A DNA stretch of 64,000 nt from Trichocoleus sp. FACHB-40 (GCF_014695915.1 NZ_JACJPF010000041.1:1-64000); one strand, 5' to 3'. Positions 29,004 to 34,754 are shown, counted from the first letter of the stretch. The notes: generated by a model not told the origin, from the letters alone. Numbers and translations are program-made.

Positions 29004-30263
29004 TCACTTCCGCATCAGGTTTCTGGCTATCTTAATCTGCGCGACTAACTTAGCAAAGTGTTTATTCATGTGACGTAAAACTTCAAGTTGAATGGGGGTA
29101 AGGTTGCCCAAGCTGCGGAGTTTTTTCTGAAGTGTCAAAAGATGCACTACAGCCTCTTGCTGCTCAACAACGGCTTGTTGCAGCTCATGGGTGGATAGTT
29201 GCTCTGTTGGGTCAGACCCAGAATTATCTATCTGTCGGAGATGGATTGCTAGCATCCTGGCGATCGCCATCAGTGTCTGACCATCATCTTCATCCCATTG
29301 ATTAGACTCTGTGTTGCCAATAGCGATCGCACCATAAACCTGACCTTCTATAATTGGCGCAGCAATCAACGCTTTGGCAGTGGGCAATAACGGATCGCTC
29401 TCGTGTCTCTGGCGCACACTTGTTACCTGGATCAATCGCGCCTGCTGAATTGCTCGTCCGATCAATCCCTCACTCACAGGCATTTTCCAACCTTTGCCAT
29501 TCGCATCGCCTGCTATAGCACAGACTGAATAATCTTCCTTGGAAGGGTTGAGTCCAGCAATGACAACACCCGTAGCACCAAAAATACTGTGTAAAATCTC
29601 TGCTGTATCTTCTAGAAGATTGTCTGGATTGCTTGAGGAGGTTTCCGCAAATTGTTGCAAGGTGCGGAGGTGTACTCGGCGACGCTGATTATTTAGTACA
29701 ACCTGTTCCAGCATACTGAGCATGCGGCTGCTGATGTCGGATATATGGATGTTTTGCTGTTCGTAGTTGCGCTTTCTAATCGGCTGGTAAGATGACTCCA
29801 TAACTTGTGATATCAGCAGCGAGATTCGGTCAACTACTTGCTCGTCAAAAGACCACAACCCATCAAAGCGTCGTCCCCCCGTTGTTATGTCCCGTCCATC
29901 TACTTCTTGGGCAACCAATGTAGTCCAAAAACTCGAAGTATTGACCAACAAAAACCACTCGCGAGACAGAACAGAGCTGGGTGAAATTTCAATAAACTCT
30001 ACCCCTGGAATAGAAGGTGGTTCCGAGTCGGCAATACCAAACACATAAACTCGCCTACATATTGCCCCTAAGCGACTATAGCGACGCAGTTGATCTGGAA
30101 AATTAGAAAATTTTTGAAAGCCCGCGTAAAAGTCTACTGAAAGTTTATGCTGGATAACTTGGTCTTCTATCTGATGACTTATGACATTCATCATTGAGAC
30201 TGTGTTTACACGGCGTATATGCTGATACTGACTAGCAACCGAGCGGAAGAGTGAAATATCCAT
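29004..30263 (-). CDS. DICT-GAF sensor protein without output domain
   Basis: A 419-residue soluble protein. The first 180 residues match the DICT sensory domain: MDISLFRSVASQY, DFYAGFQKFSNFPDQLRRYSRLGAICRRVYVFGIAD, WFLLVNTSSFWTTLVAQE and DGLWSFDEQVVDRI. A GAF domain occupies about residues 210-350 (EILHSIFGATGVVIAGL, GLIGRAIQQARLIQVTSVRQ, ALIAAPIIEGQVYGAIAIGN). The last 60 residues are helical. In cyanobacteria such domains usually precede GGDEF or kinase outputs, but none is present, so it must signal through a partner. The ligand is unknown. Confidence 0.87.
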   Translation of the reverse strand: MDISLFRSVASQYQHIRRVNTVSMMNVISHQIEDQVIQHKLSVDFYAGFQKFSNFPDQLRRYSRLGAICRRVYVFGIADSEPPSIPGVEFIEISPSSVLSREWFLLVNTSSFWTTLVAQEVDGRDITTGGRRFDGLWSFDEQVVDRISLLISQVMESSYQPIRKRNYEQQNIHISDISSRMLSMLEQVVLNNQRRRVHLRTLQQFAETSSSNPDNLLEDTAEILHSIFGATGVVIAGLNPSKEDYSVCAIAGDANGKGWKMPVSEGLIGRAIQQARLIQVTSVRQRHESDPLLPTAKALIAAPIIEGQVYGAIAIGNTESNQWDEDDGQTLMAIARMLAIHLRQIDNSGSDPTEQLSTHELQQAVVEQQEAVVHLLTLQKKLRSLGNLTPIQLEVLRHMNKHFAKLVAQIKIARNLMRK

Positions 30264-31515: not shown

Positions 31516-32484
31516 TCAAGTTACTTCAGTATGCTTACGATGCCCGTTGTTTGTGGGATACACAGTGCTGGGTTTGAATAGTTGTCCCGATTGGATAATC
31601 GCAATAGCTATAGGTTCTAGAGCTTGTGTCCAGCTATCTCTTATTCGCTGTTGCTCTTCCGGAGTGGGGTTAGTGCTTAACCGTTGAATTTCAGCAAGGA
31701 CAACTGCTGGTAGCTGCTCGTAGAAACTCATCGCCAGTTCGCTACCTACCTGACTCAGCAACAGTTGCACTAAAGCAGAGCTGTTCATTACATCATTAGC
31801 AACACTACCAGCTGCACCAGTCGCAGGGGGCGGGTCTAAAGATTTGGGGATAGAATCAACGGGAGATATAGGGGGTTTAACAACAGGCTCAGCAGCAGCT
31901 TTAAGTGTGTTGCTGGCATTTTCAATAGTAGGTTGAACACCCGCAGCAGCAGGTTTAAGCGTATCCCAAGGATCTTCAATAGTAGGTTGAACACCCGCAG
32001 CAGTAGGTTTAAGTGTGTTGCTGGCATCTTCAATAGTAGGTTGAACACCCGTAGCACTTTGAAGCGTATCCCAGGTATATTCAATAGTAGGTTGAACACC
32101 CACAGCAGCACCTTTAAGTGTGTCCATTGCACCTTCAATAGTAGGTGCAACACCCGCAGTAGCACCTTTTATTACTAAATCCGTTACACCTTCAACAATT
32201 GCTTTAAGACCCTCACCTACACCCTTACCAGTAAACGCCGCAGCTGCCGCGCTGACTACAGCACCAAAGGTTGCTCCAGCTAAAGCAGCATTGGCGACAC
32301 GCCTACGGGTGCCTGTTGGCTGAATGCCGGACTCTTCGGTAGCCGCGTCAGTATCTTCGTTAGCTCCATCTAAGGTAGTATCAACGCCATTTATGCCAGT
32401 TTCTGCTGGAGGAACGCTGGACTGTGCCGGAATCCGTCCAGTATTTTCGTCATGCCGATCAAAAGGCTGGTTGCTCTGTGTCAT
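31516..32484 (-). CDS. Glycine-zipper protein with 18-residue Pro-containing repeats (trio member A)
   Basis: I place the start at 32484 because AGGAGA lies eight bases upstream, giving 322 residues. Residues 1-60 are polar and disordered. Residues 64-87 form a small-residue hydrophobic segment (ANAALAGATFGAVVSAAAAAF). Residues 111-199 hold five repeats with consensus GVQPTIEDASNTLKPTAA: four of 18 residues and one of 17. A helical C-terminal domain (229-305: ALVQLLLSQVGSELAMSFYEQL...) is absent from the other two members. The order polar head, GAT.G zipper, 18-mer repeats matches the genes at 32771 and 34152. No known family is recognised. Membrane association is inferred. Confidence 0.8.
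   Translation of the reverse strand: MTQSNQPFDRHDENTGRIPAQSSVPPAETGINGVDTTLDGANEDTDAATEESGIQPTGTRRRVANAALAGATFGAVVSAAAAAFTGKGVGEGLKAIVEGVTDLVIKGATAGVAPTIEGAMDTLKGAAVGVQPTIEYTWDTLQSATGVQPTIEDASNTLKPTAAGVQPTIEDPWDTLKPAAAGVQPTIENASNTLKAAAEPVVKPPISPVDSIPKSLDPPPATGAAGSVANDVMNSSALVQLLLSQVGSELAMSFYEQLPAVVLAEIQRLSTNPTPEEQQRIRDSWTQALEPIAIAIIQSGQLFKPSTVYPTNNGHRKHTEVT
31888..32154 (-). repeat. 54-bp tandem repeats in trio gene A
   Basis: Five DNA copies (one three bases short) encode the GVQPTIE...TLK repeats. Copies 3 to 5 are most alike, which suggests recent duplication. The period equals that in the gene at 34152. Confidence 0.8.
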
Positions 32485-32770
32485 AATGCCCGTCTCCTGC
32501 CTACCAAAACGGCTTAACGATCTAAATGTCGCCGCTATGGCCAATTTAGCGACGCACGTATACACTTACACCGACCTCAAGAGAGACATTACTAAACATC
32601 TACCCAGGTATACCCATATACGATGATTGGGACTAAAAATCTACAACTACAGATGTACTATATGTCTGCCTTTAGCTCAGTTAAGTCTTTATTGAGGCTC
32701 GTTAAAATTGCAAGTGATGACAAGCTACGCCAAAACAAAATTTAGCTGCTTGGGAACAAAGGAGAAAATA
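32485..32770. promoter_or_regulatory. Divergent intergenic region between trio genes A and B
   Basis: These 286 bases separate two head-to-head genes of related architecture and must contain both promoters. Both starts have strong ribosome-binding sites (AGGAGA for A; AAAGGAG six bases before the ATG for B). No operator is obvious to me. The divergent layout suggests shared regulation. Confidence 0.45.
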
Positions 32771-33793
32771 ATGACTAATAACATACAATTCGATAAACGT
32801 GACGACCAAGTTGCTAGCGCCACTGCTCAACCCTACGTTCGTACAGAAGAGACAACCATAAGTACTGGGATAGCTAGAGAAGACAATAGTCCTACCATTA
32901 CGCCTCAACCCGTTGCTCGGCAACAATCCAGCAGCATGAATGTTGGGCAACAATCCAGCAGCATGAATGTTGGGCAACAATCCAGCAGCATGAATGTTGG
33001 GCAACAATCCAGCAGCATGAATGTTGGGCAACAATCCAGCAGCATGAATCCAGGCTTATCTAGAGCGCTGATGGGAGGACTCATCGGTGCTACATTAGGC
33101 ACATTAGCTGGTCTTTTGGCTGGTAGGAGAACATCTGAAGGTGTTAAACACGCTGCTAAAGGTGTAGGCGATGCGACAAAGACTGTAGCTGATGGTGTTG
33201 GTCAGACAGCCAAAGGTGTTGGCGAGGCAGCAAAGACTGTAGCTGATGGTGTTGGTCAGACAGCAAAGACTGTAGCTGGCGGTGTTGGCGACGCAGCAAA
33301 GACTGTAGCTGGCGGTGTTGGTCAGACAGCCAAAGGTGTTGGCGAGGCAGTCAAGAGTGTAGCTGAGGGTGTTAACTACGCTGTAGTAGGCACATTACAA
33401 GATACGGCTGAAGGTGTTAACCACGCTGTCGTAGGTGCATTGGATGCAGTCAAAGGTGCATCTTCAGATGCCAAGCAAGCTGTAGCAGGTGCAGCGGATC
33501 AGGTAAAAAATACAACTGAGGATGCCAAGCAATCTGTAATAGGTGCATTGGACTCAGTTCAGGATACAGCTGAGGATATCAAGCCATCTTACGAGCAGAA
33601 CCTTAAGGTAGCGATAGAACGCCCGGTTGCAAATACATCGCAGGTTGCGATGACTGGTAACATCGGCATGGAAAGGGAAATTGATATGCAGACGGCATAC
33701 ATTTCCGGCCCCCAGGACGAAGATGTCGCAACCTATCTCCAAGAAGGAGAAGTTCCTGCAATACAGCCTTATGAAGGTACTGCTGACATTTAG
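32771..33793 (+). CDS. Glycine-zipper protein with 18/11-residue amphipathic repeats (trio member B)
   Basis: The start ATG 32771 has AAAGGAG just upstream; the protein has 340 residues. Residues 1-50 are polar. Residues 51-93 are five near-perfect copies of QQSSSMNVG. Residues 98-118 form a glycine zipper (RALMGGLIGATLGTLAGLLAG). Residues 124-271 are repeats of 18 residues (GVGQTAKGVGEAAKTVAD), 11 residues (GVGQTAKTVAG) and one 15-mer. The C-terminus is acidic. Mixed 18/11 periodicity with regular Lys and Thr recalls synuclein, perilipin or LEA-type amphipathic helices. A lipid- or membrane-surface role is inferred, not shown. Confidence 0.8.
   Translation: MTNNIQFDKRDDQVASATAQPYVRTEETTISTGIAREDNSPTITPQPVARQQSSSMNVGQQSSSMNVGQQSSSMNVGQQSSSMNVGQQSSSMNPGLSRALMGGLIGATLGTLAGLLAGRRTSEGVKHAAKGVGDATKTVADGVGQTAKGVGEAAKTVADGVGQTAKTVAGGVGDAAKTVAGGVGQTAKGVGEAVKSVAEGVNYAVVGTLQDTAEGVNHAVVGALDAVKGASSDAKQAVAGAADQVKNTTEDAKQSVIGALDSVQDTAEDIKPSYEQNLKVAIERPVANTSQVAMTGNIGMEREIDMQTAYISGPQDEDVATYLQEGEVPAIQPYEGTADI
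32921..33049 (+). repeat. 27-bp minisatellite in trio gene B
   Basis: Four identical 27-bp units (32921-32947, 32948-32974, 32975-33001, 33002-33028) and a fifth partial copy of 21 bases. Each encodes QQSSSMNVG. Perfect identity, including third codon positions, implies very recent expansion and likely copy-number variation between strains. Confidence 0.9.
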
Positions 33794-34151
33794 AAGCAAT
33801 TTTTGATGACTGGGAATGGATAATGGGATTAGGAGTTAGGAGTTAATAATTCATAAATTCATAACTCCTAACTTTTCTCTATTTACCCTTACCCATGTAG
33901 AGCCGAAAAATCGCAATTTCTTGGGTTGAAGCTAACCGTTCCCTAACTATTCTTTTGTACTTGTTGGGTAACTAGATAGTGCTTTTTGCTGAGCTAATAC
34001 CAATTTACTTTTGGAAGGATACACATTTGATACCCCTAACCCCCTTTTAAAGGTGGGCTAACAAAAGCGATTAGTGTAGTGGCAAAAAAGTTAAACGGGA
34101 TAAGCTAACGGCTATTCATCAGTTTTATTTAGTAGGAAGGAGACGATTTTT

Positions 34152-34754
34152 ATGATTGAGAGCAACGAATTTTTGGATGAAGATGAAATCTTTGTTGAGC
34201 AAATTCCGCATGAATATGATGCTCCTTCAGCAGGCACAGGCATGAATAATGCGTTCACTAAAATAGCGATTGGAGCATTCATTGGTGCTACGGTGGGTGC
34301 AATAGCTGGCGCTTTAGCTAATAAGGGTTCTGTTGATAGGGTTAATCAGACTGTAAGAAATGCAGGAAACACAGTCAAGAATGCCGCTGAAAGTGTTAAC
34401 CAAACTGTAAGAAGCGTAGGTGACGGGGTAAAGAACGTAGCTGTCAACGTTAATGACACAGTAATAGATGTAGGGGACAAAGTTAAGGGTGTAACCCAAG
34501 ATGTTAATTACACTGTAAAAGATACGCTGAACACAGTTAAGGGTACAGCGGAGAACGTTAACGAAACTGTAAAAGGTACAGTGGATGTACTCAAGGATGC
34601 AGCGGAGAATGTTAACGAAAATGTAAGAGGTACGGGAGAAGCATTGAAGGGTGCAACTGAGAATGCCAATCCATCTAGTAGTCAGATTGTCAAGGGATCT
34701 GATAAGCAGATAAAATACATTTTAGTGCCAGTGGAAAGTGAAGGTAATGCTTGA
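34152..34754 (+). CDS. Glycine-zipper protein with six exact 18-residue repeats (trio member C)
   Basis: A 200-residue protein with GGAG nine bases before its ATG. Residues 1-30 are acidic (ESNEFLDEDEIFVEQ). Residues 36-58 are a glycine zipper (TKIAIGAFIGATVGAIAGALANKG). Residues 64-171 are six consecutive 18-residue repeats, all beginning VN and containing TV(K/R)...(V/L)K...E(N/S), for example VNETVKGTVDVLKDAAEN. Eighteen residues make exactly five helical turns, so V/T and K/E faces stay in register along a helix of about 160 angstroms. It closely parallels trio member B 358 bp upstream. No known family is recognised. Confidence 0.82.
   Translation: MIESNEFLDEDEIFVEQIPHEYDAPSAGTGMNNAFTKIAIGAFIGATVGAIAGALANKGSVDRVNQTVRNAGNTVKNAAESVNQTVRSVGDGVKNVAVNVNDTVIDVGDKVKGVTQDVNYTVKDTLNTVKGTAENVNETVKGTVDVLKDAAENVNENVRGTGEALKGATENANPSSSQIVKGSDKQIKYILVPVESEGNA
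34341..34664 (+). repeat. Six 54-bp tandem repeats in trio gene C
   Basis: Six diverged 54-bp units, each encoding one 18-residue helix repeat. The protein-level pattern is better conserved than the DNA, which indicates that selection maintains the periodicity. Confidence 0.8.

Follow-up and report, generated by a model that had tools for sequence, protein, structure and literature searches.

The DNA analysed here, a 64,000-nucleotide stretch from Trichocoleus sp. FACHB-40 (GCF_014695915.1 NZ_JACJPF010000041.1:1-64000; hereafter 'the window'), contains between positions 31,516 and 34,754 three neighbouring genes that raise the question of what their products, each built from a hydrophobic glycine-rich segment followed by a long series of short repeats, might do at a membrane surface. 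A preliminary description of this locus proposed that the three constitute an undescribed lipid-surface or membrane-anchored stress system. The present analysis asks how the three proteins are related, how widely and in what arrangement they are inherited, and which physical role best accounts for their construction.

Three homologous genes and their products

All three open reading frames were recovered in the positions and orientations first described, one on the minus strand and two on the plus strand. Gene A (31516-32484, minus) encodes 322 amino acids arranged as a polar head, a zipper, five proline-punctuated repeats of 17-18 residues, a linker and a C-terminal helical domain. Gene B (32771-33793, plus) encodes 340 amino acids, in which a polar head and zipper are followed by repeats of 11, 7 and 18 residues and by a tail derived from a DUF2382 domain, and gene C (34152-34754, plus) encodes 200 amino acids comprising an acidic head, a zipper, six continuous 18-mers and a tail with the motif LVPV. 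Translation is assigned to ATG codons accompanied by Shine-Dalgarno sequences, at 32484 (A), 32771 (B) and 34152 (C), which supersede the mechanically assigned GTG or TTG starts of A and B. The heads are variable; the common order of head, small-residue zipper and tandem repeats is present in each protein, as is the reported GAT.G motif within each zipper (GATFG in A, GATLG in B and GATVG in C). The three proteins are mutually homologous, and the repeats, which had been held to differ in sequence between members, are themselves homologous rather than unrelated.

The glycine/alanine zipper of A (32221..32310, minus; residues 59-88, GATFGAVVSAAAAAF) takes a looser form, GATFGAVVSAA, and is followed by the repeats (31885..32163, minus), of the form G-V-x-P-T-I-E..., of which there are five in the window and six in a second genome of the same species (G060). 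Zipper and C-terminal domain (31573..31788, minus; the 72 residues 233-304) are the best-conserved portions of the protein: the former is 93-97% and the latter 96-97% identical in genomes G003 and G004, and in more distant trios these values are 70-77% and 67-68%, against 33-36% for the repeats. Small HTH proteins contain a related sequence in their C-terminal part (hhalign, 92.7% with the HTH protein L111). Two near-identical proteins of that kind, L111 (9701-10249, plus) and L112 (9409-9966, minus), lie far apart in one genome and carry the A-type domain behind a MerR/HTH_17-like domain; L144 resembles both, with L145 as an additional HTH-like candidate.

Within the head of B is a tandem repeat (32921..33055, plus) with a 27-bp unit encoding QQSSSMNVG, present in five copies in the window and three in G060; the number of such copies, like that of the units of A, thus differs between two genomes of one species, which indicates rapid turnover of repeat number. 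The glycine zipper that follows (33047..33130, plus; residues 93-120, GATLGTLAGLLAG) is 71-79% identical in distant trios, and leads into an amphipathic repeat region (33131..33619, plus) and the tail (33620..33790, plus). The corresponding zipper of C (34254..34325, plus; residues 35-58, GAFIGATVGAIAGALA) is 67-71% identical in distant trios, and the pattern GxxxGxxxG within a hydrophobic helix can be read directly in both B (GATLGTLAGLLAG) and C (GAFIGATVGAIAG). It is followed by six 18-mers (34341..34664, plus; residues 64-171), the period of which is maintained across the class, and by a tail motif (34707..34739, plus; residues 186-196, QIKYILVPVES) whose LVPV element occurs in 35 of 36 C proteins and in 13 of 233 control reading frames. 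A plasmid search with C returned no match.

The divergent region between the starts of A and B (32485..32770) contains at 32608-32621 the NtcA-like pattern GTAN8TAC, which is found in all eight A-B intergenic regions of trio genomes (1.1 expected) and is limited to that region in those genomes with the exception of three single-copy genes; it may belong to a TATA-type promoter element instead of being an NtcA-like site. The same region includes TTAGCTCAGTTAA at 32672-32684, and TTAGCTC[AG]GTTAA lies 99-111 nt upstream of B in seven of the eight trio genomes and is missing from all other B-C loci. A motif common to the upstream regions of all three genes was sought and none was found, and a scan for sigma-70 promoters yielded sites no more numerous than in shuffled sequence. 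Downstream of B is a stable RNA hairpin (33825..33879, plus; -20.6 kcal/mol, z -5.5), a candidate terminator that is absent from the list produced by a consensus terminator scan. Since the gap between B and C in the window is 358 bp and contains this hairpin, the two genes may have separate transcripts there; outside the window's order the two genes often overlap or stand 9-51 bp apart, and B and C therefore likely form an operon there.

Periodicity and helical geometry of the repeats

When the repeat regions are compared with themselves at successive offsets, 18 residues gives the highest identity in C (0.53) and in B (0.39), and in A a value of 0.50 at 18 stands beside 0.51 at 53, or approximately three units; no random shuffle exceeds 0.29, well short of all three. 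Further recurrences are seen at offsets of 7, 11, 22 and 29. Among the 71 family proteins gathered, 58 have 18 as their significant top period. The 18-mer resembles a compound of 7 and 11 residues (in B, GVGQTAK + GVGEAAKTVAD), and units of the two lengths have a common core (GVGxxAK in B, xxTVKN in C). The repeat counts first reported accordingly need some revision: A does have five units, at spacings of 18, 17, 18 and 18; the 18- and 11-residue units of B are present, with 7-residue units mixed among them; and the six units of C are exact in length, contiguous and free of insertions or deletions, but are not identical in sequence.

The hydrophobic moment peaks at 101 degrees per residue in A, 99 in B and 100 in C, which was matched by none of 1000 shuffles in each case, and which corresponds to a hydrophobic stripe with a pitch of 3.56-3.64 residues for each turn. 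Its magnitude (muH) is 0.42 in C, 0.35 in B (shuffled, 0.15) and 0.30 in A, against 0.15-0.18 for shuffled sequences overall. On a consensus wheel of 135 18-mers from C, Val occupies positions 1, 5 and 12 (0-40 degrees), flanked by Thr/Ala/Val at 300-340 degrees, with Lys at positions 6 and 13 (120-140 degrees) and Asp/Glu/Asn on the opposite side. These peaks agree with the proposal that the repeats keep one helical face aligned; the repeat region of A contains nine prolines, every unit having a proline, so that one continuous helix is unlikely there. The repeats of B and C are free of proline.

AlphaFold modelling, which had been suggested as a check on helicity, was informative for C: the AlphaFold2 model places the zipper in a helix (28-55) and continues with a single helix of 113 residues (60-172), with pLDDT mostly 77-92 across the block (mean pLDDT 70, pTM 0.32, from single-sequence input). 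The model of A, also from a single sequence, has a pLDDT of 39 and gives no usable structure.

Distribution and ancestry

The window's genome is that of a cyanobacterium, as seen from a gene for a photosystem II chlorophyll protein (PF00421, E 2e-274). Searches of 60 related genomes, 342 genomes of the order, and sets of 390 and 291 genomes of the class revealed three arrangements: (i) the trio A< B> C> in eight genomes of two families (the window, G060, G003, G004, G002, G092, G165 and G178), in which all eight strong matches of the A C-terminal domain adjoin B and C; (ii) B> C> with A absent, found in other families and orders of the class; and (iii) one larger protein, in which the zipper has two parts and the 18-mers are punctuated by proline, and which in some cases carries an intact DUF2382 domain. 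Homologues thus co-occur rather than being scattered, and the linkage of B to C extends across the class. Among the 36 C loci inspected, the gene immediately upstream is B in 34 (including L133, in which the frame of B is shortened); of the other two, L134 has a DUF2382 zipper protein between B and C, and L131 lies at a contig end. The view of the trio as a linked system therefore holds for the eight genomes in which A, B and C are found together, but the conserved core is the two-gene unit B>C, to which A is a later, lineage-specific addition.

The flanks of the trio differ among genera, such that the only close neighbour shared with G003 and G004 is the Tex gene, and none is shared with G002. 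On the A side in the window is a gene for a protein with DICT and GAF sensory domains (29004-30263, minus), which was not found beside the trio in the other genera examined. Adjoining C in two further loci, L122 (8095-10407, minus) and L131 (6950-8242, minus), are zipper-repeat proteins with two fused additions, a second hydrophobic segment and a domain at the C-terminus (GWIFxGNIN...); this end of the L122 protein has no Pfam match.

In a phylogenetic tree A, B and C form one clade each (supports 100/100, 89/89 and 97/95), A being closer to the single-copy type and B closer to C, and the B and C trees are congruent; because the tree includes the repeats and is rooted at its midpoint, its deep branches are less certain than the synteny. 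Values of dN/dS range from 0.09 to 0.59 and are below 1 in 18 of 18 pairwise comparisons, with the lowest in C and with A at 0.32-0.52.

None of the three proteins passes any cut-off in Pfam or NCBIfam, and no single well-described family takes in all three. The nearest known kin are the YsnF/AvaK proteins (PF09557 DUF2382, TIGR02271). A, B and C give no hit to PF09557 (cut-off 23 bits); hhalign aligns the tail of B with DUF2382 at 97.1% (E 6e-11) when only tails from trios are used, and at 99.3% when that of L138, the closest relative of B, is added; the latter tail itself scores 20.8 bits against PF09557 (E 5e-4), and the domain of A, taken as a control, gives 0.2%. As judged by this sequence comparison, the tail of B and the DUF2382 proteins share ancestry, the former being a decayed domain. 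The tail of C was considered as a second remnant, and is not claimed as such because hhalign gives just 27%. A and C in the window have no recognisable DUF2382 domain, and all three members, unlike YsnF/AvaK proteins, lack a PRC barrel; separate proteins that combine a PRC barrel with DUF2382 are encoded in the window's genome.

Given the decayed domain in B, the probable ancestor of the set is a zipper-repeat protein with a DUF2382 domain, a type that survives in single copies. Single-copy zipper-repeat relatives with an intact domain are known from the same taxonomic order (L097, E 1.9e-30; L137; L134), and the two-part zipper of single-copy relatives differs from the single zipper helix of the trio. 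L137 belongs to G060; a protein of this kind was not found in the window's own assembly, from which it has been lost or in which it falls within a gap. The run at L134 (7844-10830, minus), namely B, an intact DUF2382 zipper protein and C, is an arrangement consistent with DUF2382 ancestry.

Apolipophorin III and apolipoproteins A1-A4-E (PF07464, PF01442) also consist of repeated amphipathic helices, and apolipoprotein A-I, like A and the single-copy proteins, is punctuated by proline. Against the PF07464 cut-off of 36.3 bits C scores 26.6 and B 20, and single-copy relatives, at 45-78, exceed it; this likeness is probably a convergence of composition and periodicity. The YtxH-like and glycine-zipper families share the succession of zipper and helical region, but the trio, with its single zipper helix, falls below their cut-offs (for C, 21.1 of 37.5 bits in PF12732, 16.2 of 24.2 in PF05433 and 12.1 of 25 in PF13488). 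PDB searches gave helical matches at chance level only, and weak matches to Zorya ZorA, Ag473, GvpQ and the like, far below cut-offs, were set aside as noise of helical composition. Searches of an open-access library for DUF2382, YtxH or apolipophorin proteins of cyanobacteria, and for zipper-repeat proteins, did not turn up an account of this family, an absence that does not prove novelty. The term 'undescribed' is thus apt in that no family model is passed, and too broad in that relatives exist: zippers, amphipathic repeats and DUF2382 are known parts, and what appears undescribed is their combination, together with the LVPV tail and the pairing of B and C in an operon.

A proposed membrane coat and its alternatives

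The reading that we favour, at somewhat less than even confidence, is that B and C are paired membrane-anchored proteins that coat the membrane with amphipathic helices, and that A is an accessory third member. The glycine zipper would pack into the membrane, probably helix to helix and B with C, and the repeat arm would lie along the surface with its Val/Ala/Thr stripe toward lipid, flanked on one side by Lys, and with Asp/Glu facing away from the membrane. Because each repeat would bind only weakly, in the manner of perilipin 4, the anchor would hold the arm beside the surface, where it could provide a long and reversible contact that covers or stabilises a perturbed bilayer, or keeps helices side by side; the docking of partner proteins would fall to the LVPV tail in C and to the C-terminal domain in A. 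In support are the periodicity and moments of the repeats, the continuous helix modelled for C, the operon-like pairing of B and C and the congruence of their trees, the better conservation of the zippers and the A domain than of the repeats in distant trios, the kinship with DUF2382, and the passing of the ApoLp-III cut-off by single-copy relatives.

The best explanation is one in which these proteins resemble perilipins and synucleins in physics and not in ancestry, as weakly amphipathic, membrane-anchored helical coats for which we infer lipid binding and a role in stress. Both groups have long, monotonous and weakly amphipathic helices of Val, Ala, Thr, Gly and Lys with few aromatics, and B has sub-repeats of the 11 residues that are typical of perilipin 4 and the synucleins; the present proteins differ in their 18-residue period, net acidic charge and zipper anchor. 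Eleven is not the dominant period (it is the second whole-protein offset, in B only), no perilipin or synuclein Pfam model matches A, B or C, and the comparison of B with synuclein in the PDB (phmmer, E 0.21) does not show sequence kinship. Perilipin 4 has a muH of 0.257 and 0.2% large aromatics (PMC5889406), a moment that A, B and C equal or exceed, and it holds its surface through length and side-by-side contacts instead of bulky residues (PMC8064757).

The main counter-evidence concerns charge. The repeats carry a net negative charge (-0.5 to -1.3 per 18 residues) and mostly score under the HeliQuest D of 0.68 that is the usual threshold for lipid binding, both of which argue against free membrane recruitment; cyanobacterial membranes are anionic. 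Perilipin 4 that has been made net negative no longer binds droplets (PMC5889406). The nine prolines of A and the derivation of the C model from a single sequence also count against a coat. The stress role is only a lead, drawn from kinship with YsnF/AvaK proteins: AvaK and its neighbours increase 3.6-9.5-fold in alkane-overproducing N. punctiforme (PMC7660261), and AvaK, as a PRC-barrel protein, lies outside the A/B/C set.

The same helices could instead serve as coiled-coil scaffolds or spacers, in which B and C zip together in the membrane, their 18/5 (7+11) stripes pair as straight rods, setting membranes apart or bridging them, and A adds a docking domain. An 18/5 periodicity does fit the pairing of straight helices, B co-evolves with C, the helix of C is continuous and zippers are dimerisation motifs; a core of Val/Ala/Thr/Gly with nearly no Leu, and a Gly content of 16% in the repeats of B, are poor material for stable coiled coils, and we regard this possibility as unlikely. 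An equally low probability attaches to LEA-like protectants, whose repeats would be disordered when hydrated and would, as the cell dries, either fold or vitrify, with the zipper merely positioning them at membranes: the composition (rich in Gly, Ala, Thr and Lys, with few aromatics) and the 11-residue sub-periodicity of B are of that type, but no LEA model (LEA_4 or others) matches A, B or C up to an E of 1, 18 residues is the dominant period and is retained in C across the class, and helix prediction for C is strong. Phasin- or perilipin-like proteins of a storage-body surface (a lipid droplet or polyhydroxyalkanoate granule) are quite improbable, since, for all their perilipin-like composition and weak phasin matches (TIGR01985 for C, E 8e-4 and 19.9 bits of a 99.7 cut-off; PF09361 for the relative L087, 24.7 against 24.9), every match of the trio falls below cut-off, a membrane-spanning zipper fits a bilayer better than a monolayer, and no storage genes are conserved beside the trio.

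The membrane coat can be extended to a cyanobacterial counterpart of the perilipins and synucleins, that is, a zipper-tethered coat of B and C with an 18-residue period, derived from general-stress DUF2382 proteins, equipped with an LVPV docking tail and joined in some lineages by a third member with a domain common to HTH proteins; as a whole this extended account is doubtful. The B-C pair, kept across families and orders under purifying selection and above the cut-off of no family model, is in any case a good target in the search for a class of membrane-surface proteins, and its regular arms of variable repeat number lend themselves to dose-response tests in which helix length is varied. If the helices do coat membranes, they would bring the YsnF/AvaK general-stress proteins under the same physics as perilipins and synucleins, and would offer a simple tethered system in which to study weak amphipathic helices.
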